Shown: positions 2,484-12,614, numbered from the stretch's first letter. The stretch: DNA of 26,721 nt from a virus (IMGVR_UViG_3300032240_000801:1-26721); one strand, 5' to 3'. A program made the numbers and translations. Notes: generated by a model not told the origin, from the letters alone.

Positions 2484-4406
2484 TTACTTCTTGAGTTGAT
2501 CGATTTCGGATTTCAATTCTTTGATAGCTTCAATCAAGAGACCTACGATATTTCCGTAGTCAACACTTAATAAATCAGCACCATTTTTTGCTTTGAACAC
2601 AACTTCTGGAATTACCTTTTCAACTTCTTGAGCAATCACACCAATAAATGTTCTATTGTCAGCAATTCCCACAGTGCCATTGGCTATTCTGTTGAATGTA
2701 ACACCTCGTAATGCCAATGTTTTATCCAACGCATTTTCAATAGTTGCAACATTAGTTTTTACTCGAGCATCAGAATACGCAGTTACGTTACCGGACGCAT
2801 ATAAACTGGCCACACTTAATCCGCCAGCACCGTCTGTAGTAGATCCAGTATCTGAAGTAACAACAGTACTACCAGTATAGTAAGCTAAATGGTTAGCAGA
2901 TCCAGAACCTAGTCCGCCAGGACCGATTGGACCTTGGTTACCAATTCCAGTTGCTCCTTGACTTCCTTGTGTACCTGTAGCACCTTGTACTTGACCAGCA
3001 GTACCTTGTAAACCAGTTGTACCTTGGAAGTTTTGTGGACCTTGTGTTCCGTTAAGACCTTGGCTACCAATGTTACCCTGTAATCCAAATCCTGTAGTAC
3101 CTTGGTTACCATAACCAATTGGTCCTTGTGTTCCGTTTGTTCCCTGTGCGGCTTGTGTACCCTGAGCACCTTGTGTTCCTTGGAAACCACGGTCTCCTTG
3201 CACACCCTGCATGCCTTGCGCACCTTGACTTCCTTGAATACCTTGTGTACCCTGACTTCCTTGAATACCAATTGCACCTTGTACACCTTGTACACTACCT
3301 GCTTGCCCTTGTATGCCAAGACCAGTGACACCCTGTGTACCAGTTATACCTTGACTACCAGTGGTACCTTGATTTCCTAATGTACCCTGCGCCCCTGTAG
3401 TGCCTTGCTGACCAATAGTACCCTGAGCACCTTGTGCCGCCTGTGTACCTTGATTACCTTGGAAACCTATTTGTCCATCAACACCTTGGCTACCTTGTAA
3501 ACCAAACTGTCCTTGTACACCCTGTGGACCTTGCATACTGGCGCTATTACCTTGAACACCTATAGAACCTTGTGTACCAAGAGCACCTTGGATACCCTGA
3601 GCACCAATTGCACCCTGAGTACCAATTTTACCTTGAGCTCCTTGGAAGCCTATAGATCCCTGTGTACCTTGTGGTCCTTGTAAGTTTGCACTGGAACCTT
3701 GTGTTCCCAGCACACCTTGATTACCTTGGAAACCAAAGGTACCTTGTGTTCCTTGTACACCTTGACTACCGCCATTACCTTGTGTTCCCTGAGCTCCTAA
3801 TGCTCCTTGTAGACCTTGTGTACCAGTATCGCCCTGGACACCTTGTGCTCCTTGGACGCCTTGTACACCTTGACGTCCTTGGACGCCTTGTGGTCCTTGC
3901 ATACTGGCACTGTTACCTTGAACACCTTGCAGTCCAAGTACACCTTGTGCTCCTTGAACTCCAATTATACCCTGACTACCTTGTAGACCTACCCCTTGAC
4001 TACCTTGTATTCCGTTAAGACCCTGGGCACCCGTAGTACCTTGCATATTGGCATTTGAGCCTTGAACACCTTGAACTCCCTGCGGTCCTTGCGTTCCCTG
4101 ATTACCTAATTGTCCCTGAACGCCTTGTACGCCCAACACACCTTGTACACCCTGTACACCTTGTACACCCTGTACACCTTGTGGGCCAGGAGGACCATAT
4201 GATCCTTGACTACCCGGAACACCTTGGAATCCCACTACCCCTTGCGCACCAGGAGGCCCTGCTGGAATAGAATTTCCAATCAGTTCTAACGCTTGTTGAG
4301 AAGTAATTAAGGCATCAACACCACTATCTTGTACAATAAATTCAGTGGTGCCGGGGTTTGTGCTACCTAGCTGAGGTAATTGGGTTAGTTTTGGAGTTAT
4401 GCTCAT
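2484..4406 (-). CDS. Collagen-like fibre protein with C-terminal S74 self-cleaving chaperone
   Basis: The protein has 640 residues in three parts. Residues 1-49 are a short N-terminal attachment region. Residues ~50-501 are Gly-X-Y repeats with Gln at most Y positions (G-V-Q, G-T-Q, G-A-Q, G-P-Q), broken by short inserts such as NSASMQG (twice), SNANMQG and SSANLQG. Residues 545-640 are a peptidase S74 intramolecular chaperone: SDARVK at 545-550, FIGVIAQEVEKVIPE, LSVDYGNIVGLLIEAIKEL, and a short coiled-coil tail. S74 domains trimerise fibres and then cut themselves off, expected just before S545. It is a probable tail-fibre or head-fibre protein. A late-like box lies 30 bases upstream. The repeats produce long meaningless open frames on the other strand. 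Confidence 0.9.
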   Translation of the reverse strand: MSITPKLTQLPQLGSTNPGTTEFIVQDSGVDALITSQQALELIGNSIPAGPPGAQGVVGFQGVPGSQGSYGPPGPQGVQGVQGVQGVQGVLGVQGVQGQLGNQGTQGPQGVQGVQGSNANMQGTTGAQGLNGIQGSQGVGLQGSQGIIGVQGAQGVLGLQGVQGNSASMQGPQGVQGRQGVQGVQGAQGVQGDTGTQGLQGALGAQGTQGNGGSQGVQGTQGTFGFQGNQGVLGTQGSSANLQGPQGTQGSIGFQGAQGKIGTQGAIGAQGIQGALGTQGSIGVQGNSASMQGPQGVQGQFGLQGSQGVDGQIGFQGNQGTQAAQGAQGTIGQQGTTGAQGTLGNQGTTGSQGITGTQGVTGLGIQGQAGSVQGVQGAIGIQGSQGTQGIQGSQGAQGMQGVQGDRGFQGTQGAQGTQAAQGTNGTQGPIGYGNQGTTGFGLQGNIGSQGLNGTQGPQNFQGTTGLQGTAGQVQGATGTQGSQGATGIGNQGPIGPGGLGSGSANHLAYYTGSTVVTSDTGSTTDGAGGLSVASLYASGNVTAYSDARVKTNVATIENALDKTLALRGVTFNRIANGTVGIADNRTFIGVIAQEVEKVIPEVVFKAKNGADLLSVDYGNIVGLLIEAIKELKSEIDQLKK

Positions 4407-4460: not shown

Positions 4461-7400
4461 TTAAGCACCAAACAGCAAATACGCTGAAGAAGTACTTGAT
4501 CTAGTATGATCAATGACAAATCTATCAACCATAAAGTTAAGTTGATTAAAAGTAAAGCCGCCGTTGGCCACTGAACGATTAAATCTATCTACAATTTTTT
4601 GTCCATTTCCGGGCAATGCATAACAGAGAATCACTGCTGGTAAGAATGTTCCTTTGCTAGTAAATGGTCGAGTCCAACGTGGAGTATAATTTCTATTGGT
4701 TGCCAGCCCGTAGTATGTACCAATACCAGTACTTCCAAGGTTACCTCGTTTTGGACTCCATTCTGGAACAGTAAACTTTGCGGTTGTAAAATATTTTCTT
4801 GTATTTGCTATTAAGTTAGTTGGGTCAACTACACCGACATATACCACATCGTAGATTGGTTTTCCAGAGCCGTCAAATGCAGATTGTGTTTGTACATCTG
4901 TAAAAAATAATTCCGACTGGTTTATTCCATTTGCATGGAAATAATTTGTATTATCAACAAAAGTTGGGTCTAAGTAGTCATAATGAACGAAATAATTAGT
5001 AGCTGAATTCAATTCAAAAACACCATACTCTACATATAGTCTTGGATCTCGCTGTATTCCAAAATTAGGGTCATCTGCTCTATACAACAATTCAGGTATA
5101 AAAATTTCAGTTGTATTGTTTATGAATTGGTTATATAGCTGTCGTTGTCTTATTGGCAAGAATGGCTTGATGTAAATGTTGTTATATGACGAAGTCAATG
5201 TACTATAATAATCTAATCCTTGACGGTTTTGACTAACAATTCGGAACTTAATTGGTTCAGGTACTGTTAATTTAAATGTTTGTGGAATACTAATTGCTTC
5301 CTGATATATGTTTGTTTGTACAGCCTGTTGCCATGTTTGAGGAGAATATATTGCAGAATCTGAAGCTACAATAGTCGGAGTAAACACGCCAGTCTGTGTG
5401 GTAATACCTATAATGTTTCCAGCCGTAGTTAACGACAGCCCTGACGGCAATGATCCGGCAACTATACTATAAATTAATGGTGATATATTTTGTGTTTGCT
5501 GGGCAAATATTGAAAGTTCGCTTGGCACACCTGGCAATAGATTACCTAAACTACCAGTAGATATCCAACTGATTTGGTTCTCGTCACTGCGTATTACCTG
5601 CATAGTAAACATAGTGGAACTTGATACGGCGGTGATAACACTGCCACCGTTTGGATTAGGCAGTGTTCTTGTTTTTGTAGCAGTAATTTCAAAATCGTAG
5701 ATTACTGAGTAAGTGTCTGTTCTCGGTATGTATCCAGCTAATATTCCAGATGTAGGATCTAAACTTAGTCCATAAGGTAGTGTAGTGGTCAATGTGTTAT
5801 AACTGTAGGTCACTACACCCATCCACGGATACGGATCATACGCAGTGACTGGAATAAATTGAATAGAATTATCTCTATACACACCGAGGTCGGTGCTGCC
5901 AATAAACTCAGGTGCTTGTAATACTTGGAAAGGAGGCCCAATCTCCGCATATGTTGTTGCTGAAGAATTTGCATTGATCACATACATTACAAATGTTTGT
6001 GTGGTTGCAAGGTATCCGTCACTGGCCGCTACAGCAAAAGTAAATGTGTTGATATAATCTAAACCAATATCTGTATTGATTATACCTTCTAATGTGCCTG
6101 TTGGACTTAATTCTAATCCGTTAGGCAGTGTATGGAATCCAGACACTAAAGCGTATGTAATGGTATACTGATCACTGCCTGTTGGCAATGCAGTCATTTG
6201 GTAACTCATGAAGTCTCTATCTATAAAGAGACCGTCACCTGTTCCACTTAATTGGAATGGAGCTCTTGGATCTAAAGGACCACCATTGTCAAACCAAATT
6301 GGAGGATCCTGTCTTCTAACATCGATGCTAAATGTTTTATCTGCAATGTAATCATTTCCAGATTGGTCTTCTCTAAGTCTACTGTACGCTCTAACAACAA
6401 ATGTACCTGTAAATGGTTGTGGGTAATGCTGTACTGATCCATTGATTAGACAAGTGGTACCTGTGTAATTTGGTAACAAGAATCCTTGTAGTGTTAGATT
6501 AGGTGGCAGTGTTCCGGCTATTAACGAATATGTTGTATCTGTACCCGACGCCCGTATTGATGTGGTAAAGGTTGCCCCGCCGACTAATCCTAAGTTAGTT
6601 TGAGTAGTGATCCAATGTACTGGCGGATGTATTACAACGGGAGTAACAGCATCAGTTGTACCTGCTGGGTTCAATCTAAAAATTGTTGTGTTGTATGTTT
6701 TTTTAGTAACTAAGTCGCCAGCAGTGGCCACAATGGTAAATGAATTACTGCCTGTGTTTAGATAAAATGCAGGGCCAGTAAATGTATTTGGAGTTACTGG
6801 ACTGTTGTTAACAGTTATAGAATGTATACCAGCATCGTTAGCCGATGCATCCAGACCTATAAATTTATATGCGTTGGTTACTGTGCCAATATAAGATGTG
6901 ATGGTAGTTACAAAGCGAGGTGACAACGGAACTAGTACTGGTGATATTGCAGTGTCAGTTGTTGCGGCAAAATATAAATCAGACAGCGTTGCATCATTAG
7001 GTAATTGTGCCGCTCTGTTAATATTAATAACATAGTTTGAACTGAATTGTCCGTTAAACGATGTTACGGTTACTGGGATTGCATTAAATGGACCAACAGT
7101 CAACCCATCAATGGTTATTGCCTGACCAGATATAGCAGTTTGCCCGCCTACCAATATGGTCTGTGTTGGTACTGGTGCGGTAGGAGTTATAATAACTGAT
7201 GTTACAGAGTTGTCAACGTTGACTCCATAAGATAAATTAGTTGGATCAAAACTAGGGATCAAAGTTAATTGCTGACTCAAAGTTGTAGCAACAGTAATGT
7301 TGGTCAGCGTAGAGGTTACATAATCGTAATATACCGCATTAAAATTAATAGACCCTAGTCCAGTTACCGCATCCCAACCAGTAGTCGCTTCGTAACCGCC

Positions 7401-8969
7401 ACCATATGTTCCACCTACACGAATATTACTGTTTCCAACAGTAACGTCTCGAATGTATCTATCAGCTTTGTTATATAATAAATTTTGTGGAGCACCAATT
7501 GACCCGCCTACCATACTGTTGAGTCCGGCGATCATACCAGCTACTAAAGGAGCCGCCACACTGGTTCCACCAAAATAATACAGTGCGCTTGGATTATTAT
7601 TTGTTGAATCATAAACACTGATGACGCATGACGGATCTGCATGAGCAGATATATCTGGGATAGCTCGTCCAGAGGCTCCTGTGGCTGACCCACTAGGATT
7701 GGTTGTAATAAAGATTCCACTATTTTGATATGTTGGAACTGAGAACCTTCTACTAACACCGCCACCACCGGCCGCAGTTAATTGGTTCCAAGCATATTCG
7801 TTGCCAAACGCTCCAGTAATTGGATCAAGCTGTAAAATTGTACCACCCACAGCCAATACACCCGGATTACTAGCAGGATAATTTGGATATCCATACGTTG
7901 AATAAGCCGCATTTGGTCCTGATGGATCATAAGGCCATGGACCATAATCTCCAGTGGATGCACATATAGTAATGCCCAATGTAACTAACGATGAAATGAT
8001 TCCATCTAATTGTGGAAGGGTCGAACCTAAATATTGTTCACTAGCACCGTAACTATAAGAAATTATATTGATACTTTCAGTTCCGGATATAGCATCGTTT
8101 AAAATCCTTTGCCATATAGACACAACACTCGATGGCTGATAATCTTTAGCAAAGTATACAATAATATTGGCGCTGGGTGCAGCCGCGCCTACAGCTACAA
8201 TGTCTCCAACTACTTCAAGATTGGTTGATAAATCGCCGCCAGTTGGATTATTACCTGCCGCACCTGTTACAGTTTTTGCTCGTACATTGGGAAATGGTAT
8301 AGTAACTCCATCTATGCCATTTGCACGAAAGCTGTCCTGTAAATTAGTGTTGGTGTAACCGCCGCCCAATTCAATAATAGCTACAGTTTGTCCACCGCCC
8401 TGTGGCCATGGAGTCCCATAAGCCTTGGCCGCAGTGGCCAATGAAGTTACTTCACTATTGGTTGGGCTTAATATTCTCCCAGGGTTTGACGCATTTCTTG
8501 AAACAATCGCAGATTCTTCTAATCCGAGTACACCAACAACGATGTCTGATAATTCTATAGGTAAACTAACAGAACCGTTAAAACTAGTATATGTAGAGCC
8601 ACCATCAGTTACGGTCTGTAAAGTAATACCAAATGCGGAATTAATATGTTTAACAGTGCCTGTTAAATGTACTGTGGCACCGGTTGCATAATGATAATCA
8701 AGTTCTAGTCTATTAGCACTTGCAAATGCTAGAACTGCGGCAATATCTGAGTCAGATACTGTAAAATGAGCGCGATAAGTGGCTCGATCTAATGGTGGAA
8801 GCTCACCATTTATAACCTTTTCAGCATATTGTTCTACGGTTAACCCGTCTGGATGCACAGGTCTACGGAGCATCACAGTAATTGGTAATACTGTGGATTC
8901 ATCTAACGGGATAACGGATACCGCATTAGATGAAATTGTATGATTAGCAATAATGACTGACTGGGGCAT
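4461..8969 (-). CDS. Giant sedolisin (S53) serine protease fused to cadherin/Ig-like modules; probable virion protein
   Basis: The protein has 1502 residues. Residues ~20-165 match a pro-kumamolisin activation domain (HFTVSDSDIAAVLAFASANRLEL; TGTVKHINSAFGI). Residues ~166-550 are a sedolisin domain with all key residues: E252 and D256 (ExxxD spacing), oxyanion D341 in STGDYG, and S470 in GGTSVAAP. Calcium-site motifs RDVT (507-510) and GWDAVTGLGS (531-540) are also present. Residues ~550-770 look like two cadherin-like beta sandwiches. Residues ~785-1236 contain about four Ig-like modules of the 'LPxGLxLxxxGxxxG' type. Residues ~1240-1502 are a unique C-terminal domain. There is no signal peptide. 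S53 enzymes are usually secreted acid proteases of about 400-650 residues, so this is a much-enlarged fusion. Its place next to the fibre gene suggests a tail or fibre component that degrades host-surface protein or processes itself; that role is inference. Confidence 0.88.
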   Translation of the reverse strand: MPQSVIIANHTISSNAVSVIPLDESTVLPITVMLRRPVHPDGLTVEQYAEKVINGELPPLDRATYRAHFTVSDSDIAAVLAFASANRLELDYHYATGATVHLTGTVKHINSAFGITLQTVTDGGSTYTSFNGSVSLPIELSDIVVGVLGLEESAIVSRNASNPGRILSPTNSEVTSLATAAKAYGTPWPQGGGQTVAIIELGGGYTNTNLQDSFRANGIDGVTIPFPNVRAKTVTGAAGNNPTGGDLSTNLEVVGDIVAVGAAAPSANIIVYFAKDYQPSSVVSIWQRILNDAISGTESINIISYSYGASEQYLGSTLPQLDGIISSLVTLGITICASTGDYGPWPYDPSGPNAAYSTYGYPNYPASNPGVLAVGGTILQLDPITGAFGNEYAWNQLTAAGGGGVSRRFSVPTYQNSGIFITTNPSGSATGASGRAIPDISAHADPSCVISVYDSTNNNPSALYYFGGTSVAAPLVAGMIAGLNSMVGGSIGAPQNLLYNKADRYIRDVTVGNSNIRVGGTYGGGYEATTGWDAVTGLGSINFNAVYYDYVTSTLTNITVATTLSQQLTLIPSFDPTNLSYGVNVDNSVTSVIITPTAPVPTQTILVGGQTAISGQAITIDGLTVGPFNAIPVTVTSFNGQFSSNYVININRAAQLPNDATLSDLYFAATTDTAISPVLVPLSPRFVTTITSYIGTVTNAYKFIGLDASANDAGIHSITVNNSPVTPNTFTGPAFYLNTGSNSFTIVATAGDLVTKKTYNTTIFRLNPAGTTDAVTPVVIHPPVHWITTQTNLGLVGGATFTTSIRASGTDTTYSLIAGTLPPNLTLQGFLLPNYTGTTCLINGSVQHYPQPFTGTFVVRAYSRLREDQSGNDYIADKTFSIDVRRQDPPIWFDNGGPLDPRAPFQLSGTGDGLFIDRDFMSYQMTALPTGSDQYTITYALVSGFHTLPNGLELSPTGTLEGIINTDIGLDYINTFTFAVAASDGYLATTQTFVMYVINANSSATTYAEIGPPFQVLQAPEFIGSTDLGVYRDNSIQFIPVTAYDPYPWMGVVTYSYNTLTTTLPYGLSLDPTSGILAGYIPRTDTYSVIYDFEITATKTRTLPNPNGGSVITAVSSSTMFTMQVIRSDENQISWISTGSLGNLLPGVPSELSIFAQQTQNISPLIYSIVAGSLPSGLSLTTAGNIIGITTQTGVFTPTIVASDSAIYSPQTWQQAVQTNIYQEAISIPQTFKLTVPEPIKFRIVSQNRQGLDYYSTLTSSYNNIYIKPFLPIRQRQLYNQFINNTTEIFIPELLYRADDPNFGIQRDPRLYVEYGVFELNSATNYFVHYDYLDPTFVDNTNYFHANGINQSELFFTDVQTQSAFDGSGKPIYDVVYVGVVDPTNLIANTRKYFTTAKFTVPEWSPKRGNLGSTGIGTYYGLATNRNYTPRWTRPFTSKGTFLPAVILCYALPGNGQKIVDRFNRSVANGGFTFNQLNFMVDRFVIDHTRSSTSSAYLLFGA

Positions 8970-9302: not shown

Positions 9303-9854
9303 TCAAACACCCTCCATTTTAATGTTGATCCTATCCCAATCAATAATTTTCCATTGATTGTCTAGGTATTTTTCTTTATCTGCTTGGTAATCTAATGCCC
9401 AGGCGTGTTCCCACCAATCAATAAGTACTAAGATATCTTGCTTAATTTCATGATTAGTGATGGTTTTAATTTTACCATCTTTTGCAAGATACACCCAACC
9501 ACTGCCTTGTATAGACATTGCAGTTTTTTTGAAACTCTCTTTGAATTTATCCCAATCTTTAAAATGTTGGTTGATAAAGTCTGAAATTGCACCTTCTGGT
9601 TTGTTGTTACCTTTTGGTGGTCTTAACTGTGGAAAATATATACTATGTAAAAATGCACCTGCTTCATTGAAGTCGGGGTCACCTTCTCCTGCGTTAAATC
9701 GATCAACGTAGGCCTTATAGAGTTTACCATAGTGATAATCTATAGCTTTTTTACTTAGGCTACGACCTAAACCATCTTTTGGATATGGTAATTCTGTCTG
9801 TTTTAATTCTTTAGGGACCTTCCCTTCAGTAATTGTTTTAATAAAATTATACAT
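9303..9854 (-). CDS. Iron/manganese superoxide dismutase
   Basis: The protein has 183 residues, close to the usual length for the family. It converts superoxide to oxygen and hydrogen peroxide. Metal ligands are visible as H41 (DYHYGK), H70 (GAFLHSIYF), D146 and H150 (IDWWEHAW), with second-shell Tyr Y49 retained. G66 lies four residues before H70, as in Mn-type enzymes. N134-H135-E136 sits where Mn enzymes have N-Q-D, so a His replaces the usual Gln, and the second-shell His of HYGKH is L45. No signal peptide. A superoxide dismutase in a phage genome is uncommon. The next TATAAATA box upstream on this strand is about 140 bases away (9987-9994). Confidence 0.9.
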   Translation of the reverse strand: MYNFIKTITEGKVPKELKQTELPYPKDGLGRSLSKKAIDYHYGKLYKAYVDRFNAGEGDPDFNEAGAFLHSIYFPQLRPPKGNNKPEGAISDFINQHFKDWDKFKESFKKTAMSIQGSGWVYLAKDGKIKTITNHEIKQDILVLIDWWEHAWALDYQADKEKYLDNQWKIIDWDRINIKMEGV

Positions 9855-10419: not shown

Positions 10420-11568
10420 TTAATCGAAAAAGAACATTTGCCAAAGCCTACAGTTCTCTTTGGTGTATCCAAAATATTCATTAGCTGAATGAATATATCC
10501 TGCATTGAATATCACTAGTCTATTGTATACATTGCCCAATACATCGACTGGTTCAAATATAGTTCTATCTAAGTTTTGTGAGCCAGCTCTAAAACACTGC
10601 ATGATATCTGGATGTGTTTTATGTCTAATGTTTGTGCCTTTCCTAGCATAAGTTGACGTACCAGTTTCTGGAGGGGCATCCGGAGTAAGGTATAGCATGC
10701 CAGCAAATGATTGATCATCACAATGATATACCAGTGGCTCGCCTTCCATACTATACTGAAAGCGTCCGTTCATACCGTGTTCTTCCCATTTGGTAATTTT
10801 ACGGTTCATTATTTTTTCAAATTCTTCTTTTAGTCCTGGGAATAAGAACTGTTTGAAAGTTCTGCGTCCAATGTATCCACGTCCAATGCCGCCTTGATGA
10901 TACTCTTGTTCTAATGCAAATTTTCTTATAGCATCTGGGTCTGCATAAAAATTATCCACTACCCATAGTCCTGGCATTCTATTTTTATTAAAAATAGATG
11001 GGGTTTCAATTTTTTTTGGATAACCTAAATTATTCAAATTGTTATTGACAGCGTCCAAATACATCGGAGCAATGGTATAGTTGTGTTTTAGATCAGCCAT
11101 GATTTCTCTGGCTTCTTCATACTTGCCATTCCACCACGAAGCTACACCTTTTTGGAAATACAATCCATAATCGCCTGGATATGTAACATCCACAGGTAAT
11201 GGTTCACATTTTGAATTAGAAAACTTCATACCCATTGATGCCATGGTGTATGAGTCTATCCAAAGTTGTTGATTTTCAAAATGTTTACTTAATAGGAAAT
11301 ATGCTTCGGGTCTCTTTGGCATCAATGCGATGGCTTTTTGCAAAAGGGCTTTTTTGGTTTCATTGTCCCTAACATTTTTTAAACATACCACACATTTTAG
11401 TATTGCTTGGTATTGTTTAAGATCGTCATCTTCTCTTTCACTAGCTCTGAGAAATAATGCAAATGCCATGCCAAGTTGTCCCTGGCTTTCATATTCTAAC
11501 GCTAATTTAAAATTAGCATCTGGATCTTCTGGATTGTTGGTATAATTTAATAGTGATTGTTCTAGCAT
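10420..11568 (-). CDS. TPR-like module fused to a 2OG-Fe(II) oxygenase domain (DUF6445-like)
   Basis: The protein has 382 residues. Residues 1-184 match the N-terminal module of the FkbM protein at 196-1434 along their length (shared RPEAYFL, YFQKGVA, EIMADLK, NNNLNN, GYP). Residues ~200-382 carry an oxygenase-like core: VVDNFYADPDAIR, an HxD pair H282-C-D284 in YHCDDQSFAGMLYL, distal H360 in GYIHSANEYFG, and R374 near the end (RLWQMFFF) as a probable 2-oxoglutarate anchor. The layout resembles DUF6445-type putative hydroxylases. The substrate is unknown. It is the last gene before the terminator at 10391-10413. The ATG has no clear Shine-Dalgarno site and follows the uvdE stop by 18 bases. 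Confidence 0.75.
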   Translation of the reverse strand: MLEQSLLNYTNNPEDPDANFKLALEYESQGQLGMAFALFLRASEREDDDLKQYQAILKCVVCLKNVRDNETKKALLQKAIALMPKRPEAYFLLSKHFENQQLWIDSYTMASMGMKFSNSKCEPLPVDVTYPGDYGLYFQKGVASWWNGKYEEAREIMADLKHNYTIAPMYLDAVNNNLNNLGYPKKIETPSIFNKNRMPGLWVVDNFYADPDAIRKFALEQEYHQGGIGRGYIGRRTFKQFLFPGLKEEFEKIMNRKITKWEEHGMNGRFQYSMEGEPLVYHCDDQSFAGMLYLTPDAPPETGTSTYARKGTNIRHKTHPDIMQCFRAGSQNLDRTIFEPVDVLGNVYNRLVIFNAGYIHSANEYFGYTKENCRLWQMFFFD

Positions 11569-11586
11569 ACTATTAATTATTATTTT

Positions 11587-12381
11587 TTAAAGGGCACCGA
11601 CTTTTTTTGCGTGTTCATATAATTTGAAACTAGCAAGATTTTTGCCTTTGCTTTCGCACATGATGTCATGTGTGCCTAAAAATCCTACAGCCCACTCGTT
11701 AGTGGCATCATTCCAGTAGAAGTCAGAGTGTGCTCTGAGCTTTTGCTTTTTATAACCAGACTCTAGAAGTGCTTGATAGTCAGGGGCGCAAATGTTATTA
11801 TGGCCCACGAGATAATCTTCACGGCTGACAGAATAATGCATAGTAGGCCGGACACCACGCCAAGACTGAACCACCCGATCAACACGGGGGTCCATGGGCG
11901 AGATGTACTCTCCTGTTTTAATCCAATGGTGATGAATATCAAGAACGATAGGCACCAAATCACAAAGCTCAATACAATCATCTAACCCCCAGGCGTTTTC
12001 TTCATTTTCGATAGTAATACAGTTTCTTGCTTCTGCTGATAATTTTGAGTAGGCACGGCGGATACCGGCTGGACCTTGTTTACCGGAGATGTGGACGTTG
12101 ATCTTGAGATCCTGAAAGGATAGGCCGAAGCCCATGTAACGTGCCATATCCGCATGATATTCAAATTCCTCTATACTACGTTCAACAATGCCGGGGTTAT
12201 CGCTTGCGAGGACAGTAAACTGTCCAGGATGGAAGCTAAGCCTAACATTATTATTCCTAGCACTGTTGCCAATAATGCTAAAATTTTTATTACAATAGTC
12301 AACAACATCAGCACGACGCCAAAAATAACTCCAATCACGTTGGGTATAAGCAGGAAGCAAATCACTGCTAAGACGCACCAT
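11587..12381 (-). CDS. uvdE: UV damage endonuclease UvdE, C-terminal part (frame broken)
   Basis: These 264 residues carry most of the UVDE TIM-barrel. Likely metal ligands are H51 (SFHPGQF), H97 (NVHISGK), E125 (TIENEENAWG), D148 and H151 (VLDIHHHW), H182 (TMHYS), H218 (RAHSDF) and E243 (CESKGK). UvdE nicks DNA 5' of UV photoproducts and starts repair without photolyase. The reading frame is open upstream to 12399 as LDENLRMVRLSSDLLP, and VRLSSDLLP matches the first conserved strand of the family. The true start therefore lies in the fragment at 12396-12614. The ATG at 12381 is only the first Met in this frame. One missing base near 12398 explains the split. Confidence 0.85.
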   Translation of the reverse strand: MVRLSSDLLPAYTQRDWSYFWRRADVVDYCNKNFSIIGNSARNNNVRLSFHPGQFTVLASDNPGIVERSIEEFEYHADMARYMGFGLSFQDLKINVHISGKQGPAGIRRAYSKLSAEARNCITIENEENAWGLDDCIELCDLVPIVLDIHHHWIKTGEYISPMDPRVDRVVQSWRGVRPTMHYSVSREDYLVGHNNICAPDYQALLESGYKKQKLRAHSDFYWNDATNEWAVGFLGTHDIMCESKGKNLASFKLYEHAKKVGAL

Positions 12382-12395
12382 CCTAAGATTTTCAT

Positions 12396-12614
12396 CTAAC
12401 TACCTACTCTTTCAACAAGTCGTCGAGTTGCCTCAATATTTTGTACCATGATGTCCCAGAGCTTTTGTTCTGCAACATCCTTTGTTTGTCTATTTAACCA
12501 TGTGATGGTAGTGCCACCAGTATTATACTGTTTAGCATCATCGTTGGGTTTGATGCCATCTACTTGGCTTGGGTGGTCGATCCATTTACAAGCGAATCCG
12601 ATTCGTTTAATCAT
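12396..12614 (-). CDS. uvdE: UvdE N-terminal part, ending at a frameshift
   Basis: The 72 residues begin MIKRIGFACKWIDH and contain NTGGTTITWLNRQ and a helix ending LVERVGS, fitting the start of UVDE proteins. The frame then hits TAG at 12398-12396. Re-reading one base puts LDENLRMVRLSSD directly after VGS, giving an unbroken UvdE of about 342 residues. The minus strand has TT where TTT would restore the frame. The gene overlaps the upstream stop by 8 bases. It may be a real inactivating mutation, a programmed slip, or an assembly or sequencing error in a short homopolymer. Confidence 0.8.
   Translation of the reverse strand: MIKRIGFACKWIDHPSQVDGIKPNDDAKQYNTGGTTITWLNRQTKDVAEQKLWDIMVQNIEATRRLVERVGS

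Follow-up and report, generated by a model that had tools for sequence, protein, structure and literature searches.

A sedolisin-family (S53) protease domain fused to a predicted tail-type protein in a bacterial virus, and its relation to foot-linked proteases of other phages

Described systems and the protein under study

Tail-borne depolymerases that act on glycans are well known in phages, whereas tail-borne proteases have been little studied. The tailspike and tail-fibre depolymerases carry a hydrolase on a tail appendage and are exchanged between phages. Here we describe a gene of IMGVR_UViG_3300032240_000801:1-26721, a 26.7-kb IMG/VR record that is probably a fragment (the whole stretch is called the window below), whose product joins an S53 protease, an immunoglobulin (Ig)-like beta-sandwich body and a C-terminal domain named here the foot. 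Its comparison with the depolymerases is a functional one only, as the target would be protein instead of glycan, the fold is different and no homology is claimed.

The closest described enzymes are the kumamolisins and sedolisins of family S53 (1t1e, 1sio, 1ga4) together with human TPP1 (3edy; TPPI below), which have the prodomain, the fold, the Glu-Asp-Asp-Ser residues and the Ca site in common with the window protein. In contrast to kumamolisin, the window protein is phage-borne, has an Ig stalk and a tail-type foot, and carries Tyr307 in place of Trp129. The closest proteins in overall plan are gp329 of phage Atu_ph07 (AUZ95088.1) and XYS97278.1 of phage Phosso (PHROG 3677), which likewise possess an N-terminal clan SB protease, He_PIG modules and the foot, and are encoded among tail genes. 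However, their protease belongs to S8 (subtilisin, Asp-His-Ser) and that of the window to S53, and the foot identity is only about 21-24%. Measured against the PHROG 3677 type, the window protein has the foot and the He_PIG body but not the S8 domain; it matched no PHROG, and no PHROG matched S53. The subtilisin-like serine proteases of cyanophages (S-SCSM1, S-H38; PHROG 9158), annotated as virion or baseplate proteins, are related to an S8 protein encoded beside the foot gene of contig L004, but they are S8 enzymes encoded by a separate gene, and no foot was found in those records by tblastn.

S8 proteases of phages are already known as annotations (PHROG 3677 "protease", PHROG 9158 and the cyanophage "subtilisin-like serine protease"). 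A tblastn search of 50,697 phage records with three different viral S53 queries yielded no S53, the searchable part of the open literature held no relevant report of a phage sedolisin or kumamolisin, and the terms used for phage tail proteases returned nothing to the point there. A preliminary description of the window, made from the sequence, was not aware of any comparable system in phages; for S53 this holds in the searchable records, but S8 analogues with the same foot exist in Atu_ph07 and Phosso. As far as can be searched, a sedolisin on a tail protein has thus not been reported from phages, while clan SB proteases linked to tails are known and have received little study.

The predicted S53 zymogen

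The gene is a single uninterrupted open reading frame from ATG to stop, running from 8969 down to 4461 on the minus strand and encoding 1502 residues, and a full-length ortholog with the same plan is present in contig L002. The frame had been given correctly in the preliminary description, to which we add the strand; all features below lie on the minus strand. The pro-kumamolisin activation domain proposed there was recovered over the Pfam cut-off (PF09286, E 1.1e-12) at residues 16-151 (8517..8924), with a predicted local distance difference test score (pLDDT) mostly above 90. It is followed by a linker at residues 159-171 (8457..8495, pLDDT below 50), which is the proposed region of activation cleavage, and by the S53 catalytic domain at residues 170-545 (7335..8462). 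Likewise consistent with the earlier assignment, the alignment with pro-kumamolisin 1t1e runs from end to end of residues 15-540 (phmmer E 6.6e-53), and the identity to solved relatives is about 31-34%.

An AlphaFold2 model of the protease part, built from 40 sequences, reached a pLDDT of 86.6 and a predicted template modelling score (pTM) of 0.90, the low-confidence stretch lying at 159-171. The best solved-structure match to the model was intact pro-kumamolisin (Foldseek E 9.6e-43), and VIA-align superposed residues 2-545 on 1t1e with Z 49.8 and a root-mean-square deviation (rmsd) of 2.6 over 501 residues. Z scores were 46-50 to kumamolisins versus about 26 to subtilisins, as expected of the subtilisin-like S53 fold, and mature kumamolisin residue 1 paired with window residue 170. 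A model placing E252, D256 and S470 apart had been named beforehand as evidence against the protease; the predicted structure instead follows pro-kumamolisin throughout the superposed length.

The catalytic residues stand where the preliminary description had put them: Glu252 and Asp256 (codons 8214-8216 and 8202-8204, within 8202..8216), the oxyanion-hole aspartate Asp341 (7947..7949) and Ser470 in the motif GGTSVAAP (7560..7562). They align with E78, D82, D164 and S278 of kumamolisin. This tetrad is intact in each of the 63 viral S53 domains that are of full length. The viral S53s were gathered with a profile of the C-terminal half, an earlier profile of weak patterns having found only the ortholog. 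A putative Ca2+ site is formed by Asp508 (7446-7448), G531 and Asp533 (7371-7373; the site spans 7371..7448), retained in 62 of 64 viral S53 domains, the two aspartates corresponding to D517 and D543 of TPPI. Thus the Glu, Asp and Ser with the oxyanion Asp, the fold, the prodomain and, at the sequence level, the single C-terminal Ca2+ site of family S53 were all found.

In human TPPI, a hydrogen-bonded network of W542, Y508, D451 and R447 has been described together with the Ca ligands (PMC2914745). The apparent counterparts in the window protein, assigned by spacing and motif, are W532, Y499, D439, R435, D508 and D533, which are invariant or nearly so. Kumamolisin Trp129 is replaced by Tyr307 in the window and five relatives. 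Against the L002 ortholog, the ratio of nonsynonymous to synonymous substitution rates (dN/dS) was lowest in the catalytic domain (0.094), followed by the foot (0.129) and the prodomain (0.28). Given the fold match, the intact tetrad and Ca site, the apparent TPPI-type network and the low dN/dS, the S53 part is very likely an active enzyme, as far as sequence and model can tell. S53 enzymes are usually active at acid pH. According to PMC2914745, the family members have pH optima in common. By a crude hydrophobicity test, no signal peptide was present in the viral S53s or in the nearest bacterial S53s, and since both are alike in this, the feature says nothing on S53.

Body, foot and exchange of proteases

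Residues 546-1240 (5250..7334) form the beta-sandwich body, in which Pfam finds two Cadherin-like (PF12733, 4.4e-17) and three He_PIG (PF05345, 3.5e-12) stretches over about 690 residues; with Pro-kumamolisin and He_PIG, two of the three Pfam families suggested for a profile search were matched. The "about six" modules counted earlier are a fair estimate, because this length gives room for about seven. The later part of the body is the counterpart of a body common to other foot proteins. The observations on the reading frame and its domains are all far beyond chance.

The C-terminal 260 residues, previously thought unique, proved not to be so. A tblastn search with the C-terminus returned the "extracellular serine proteinase precursor" of Agrobacterium phage Atu_ph07, the "S8 family peptidase" of Sinorhizobium phage Phosso and four viral contigs, and a profile of the foot (residues 1258-1502, 4464..5198) matched 192 viral contigs, so that the domain is present in these as well as in two cultured jumbo phages. 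Its AlphaFold2 model (pLDDT 71, pTM 0.70), for which two phage-record rows were left out of the alignment, has the predicted fold of the 2H phosphoesterases (Usb1, Z 10.6 and rmsd 3.3 over 173 residues; LigT, Z 9.4), a group that includes AKAP18 and Acb1. Unlike these enzymes, the foot is without the catalytic HxT/S motifs: the window's sequence has none, and among 53 foot domains 45 had none, eight had one and none had two. R1297, D1300, D1482 and R1483 are invariant instead. Of 55 foot domains, 14 matched PHROG 13911, "virion structural protein"; in BFVD, phage "Ig" proteins and the Atu_ph07 proteinase were the closest models. We read the foot as a structural or binding part.

The gene context is of the same kind. 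Next to the gene lies a collagen-like tail fibre with an S74 chaperone domain (2484..4406, minus strand; PF01391 2.2e-50, PF13884 8.8e-16; PHROG tail fibres). Beside the foot gene of L004 are a PHROG "baseplate wedge tail fiber protein connector" and a "baseplate wedge subunit", and T4 gp9/10 N-domains, Mtd_N and collagen occur near other foot genes. The window gene thus lies among tail genes and encodes a domain in common with virion proteins. For Atu_ph07, the published account reports three clusters of virion proteins from electrospray ionization tandem mass spectrometry, one being coding sequences (CDS) 284-329 (PMC6102473). Exactly 39 CDS steps separate the tail fibres taken as gp288 and gp327, and by this count the Atu_ph07 proteinase AUZ95088.1 is gp329, the last gene of that cluster as given there. 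The T4 capsid (PF07068) and sheath (PF04984) families had no matches in the related contigs, which are fragment records, and PF07068 matched no control either. A T4-type late promoter, TATAAATA, was also considered; it was not above chance, and none lies directly upstream of the gene.

The protease at foot loci is variable. Atu_ph07 (P0002) and Phosso (P0003) have the order N-terminal region, S8 subtilase, Ig-type modules and foot, which in sequence terms is the window's plan with another protease family from the same clan. An S8 gene adjoins the foot gene, usually upstream, in 16 fetched contigs, marine ones included. S53 recurs in seven related contigs. It is fused to the foot in the window, in L002 (with the same gene order) and in L010 and L102 (35-37% identity to the window), and is a separate gene beside the foot in L011, L107 and L110; in L090 it is present, and the contig ends before the foot position. 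The search for the same fusion in phages proposed in the preliminary description was therefore successful in viral contigs, but not in the phage records. In L110 the S53 gene is directly followed by a foot protein of 2234 residues (L110:9504-16208) with eight Cadherin-like repeats and, at its N-terminus, an alpha/beta hydrolase of esterase-like type (Pfam BD-FAE at 7.3e-6, which falls slightly short of the cut-off). A Pfam search for other enzymes in 44 protease-free foot proteins found only He_PIG and CBM_5_12.

On a foot tree built with a quick method, S53 changed at least twice and S8 at least five times, "none" here meaning none within the stretch fetched. In the S53 tree, also a quick one, 14 viral sequences including all foot-adjacent ones stand apart from bacterial S53s (Shimodaira-Hasegawa-like approximate likelihood ratio test, SH-aLRT, 98). 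Neither S8 nor S53 was present within the stretch fetched at 26 foot loci whose context extends to about 5 kb or more, and for this reason the protease is an accessory of the foot body. Because the foot is common to many phages, some with a different protease in or beside it, foot-bearing viruses may use interchangeable proteases when attacking the cell. Two further arrangements were observed: in L019, L023, L025 and L034 two tandem S8 genes lie immediately upstream of that for the foot, and many other viral contigs (L115-L151), often of high GC, carry short S53 domains (about 350-470 residues) that mostly lack a prodomain, occupy a different part of the S53 tree and have tail and lysis genes among their neighbours.

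Proposed role and neighbouring genes

The preliminary description had suggested that the virion carries a self-activating protease on a stalk, either for cutting a host surface protein or for processing the fibre during assembly. The best reading is a protease that the virion bears on a stalk, in view of the intact zymogen-type S53, the purifying selection and the position of the Ig body's relatives among genes for baseplate and tail fibres; overall, the suggestion is partly supported. We propose, with somewhat more confidence than doubt, that the product is a structural tail or baseplate-fibre protein whose tethered, autoactivating S53 domain most likely clips a host-surface protein at adsorption. 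The foot and Ig body, a widely shared phage part, would dock the protein on the virion in the baseplate or fibre region, and the Ig stalk would hold the zymogen outward with the prodomain covering its active site. The enzyme would itself cut the linker (near residues 159-171). Still tethered through the stalk, the mature protease would clip a protein at the host surface or in its surroundings, such as one of the S-layer, the outer membrane or the matrix, which would open the way to the receptor. The exchangeable, accessory distribution is in keeping with an enzyme adapted to the surface of its host. Several points weigh on the other side: the location in the virion is argued from homologues and gene context, the separate S53 and S8 genes are tied to the foot protein by adjacency, the substrate is one that we infer, and the acid activity typical of S53 is odd for a virion in water.

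The main rival is a protease of tail assembly, which would work inside the cell, either by releasing itself or by trimming fibre proteins nearby, and would play no part at the host surface. It would agree with the autocatalytic cleavage in cis of S53 zymogens, with the position of S53 in or beside tail proteins and with the adjoining fibre, whose S74 domain is of a self-cleaving type. We nevertheless consider it unlikely, since the 26 loci without a nearby protease mean that the conserved body needs none, two unrelated peptidase families serve alternately, and the cytoplasm is not acidic; being accessory and exchangeable, the protease is better explained by entry at the host surface than by an obligatory assembly role. 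That S53 is a separate gene without a foot of its own in L011, L107 and L110, and stands alone in many other viral contigs, would suit an enzyme acting unbound after autoprocessing or lysis, with targets such as proteins of the host, the extracellular matrix or competing phages, and with the foot serving only for folding or storage. Such a free protease seems quite improbable, as the fusion is kept in the window, L002, L010 and L102 and the foot is a virion-type domain.

A catalytically silent S53 domain, acting as a structural or binding module, is very unlikely: the Tyr307 replacement could be taken in this sense, activity being predicted from sequence, but the conservation of tetrad and Ca site, the dN/dS of 0.094 and the retained prodomain and linker argue against it. 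A bacterial S53 gene misassembled onto a phage gene might be suspected, as S53 genes are frequent in bacteria and none turned up in the records of cultured phages. Such a chimeric or host-derived contig can hardly be the explanation; it is already contradicted by independent contigs, since the frame is continuous, L002 has the same fusion and gene order, L010 and L102 have the fusion at 35-37% identity to the window, and the viral S53s of these contigs group apart from the bacterial ones.

On the proposed reading of a tethered protease acting at the host surface, a broader one, which we hold tentatively and with slightly more doubt than belief, is that foot and Ig body form a socket for S53, S8 or, in L110, an esterase-like hydrolase, and that large tailed phages generally rely on proteolysis of host surface proteins, by exchangeable enzymes, as a strategy of entry, of which the sedolisin form would be a version not described so far. 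Foot and body define a family with exchangeable proteases, and the phage sedolisin is amenable to expression and assay. The cultured relatives Atu_ph07 and Phosso offer systems for studying virion location and the effect of catalytic mutants. These findings also raise the question of how enzymes from a family typically active at acid pH can function as part of a phage.

Other genes of the window and its relatives were noted. Just upstream of the S53 gene is a complete Fe/Mn superoxide dismutase gene (9303-9854, minus strand; Pfam over cut-off); among the contigs with S53, L002, L010, L090, L102 and L110 have a superoxide dismutase gene as well. A UV-damage-endonuclease-like gene occupies two frames (11587-12381 and 12396-12614, minus strand) and is a single frame of 342 residues in L010 and L110, so that the split is a frameshift either in the virus or in the assembly. 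Inside this gene lies a very hydrophobic alternative-frame open reading frame (12171-12395, minus strand; L010:4141-4512), which may merely reflect the conservation of the gene that it overlaps. Finally, the genes at 199-1434 and 10423-11568 (minus strand) encode related TPR-like N-termini, followed in one by a methyltransferase-like part and in the other by a DUF6445 part, and in L010 these two parts are joined in one protein of 626 residues.

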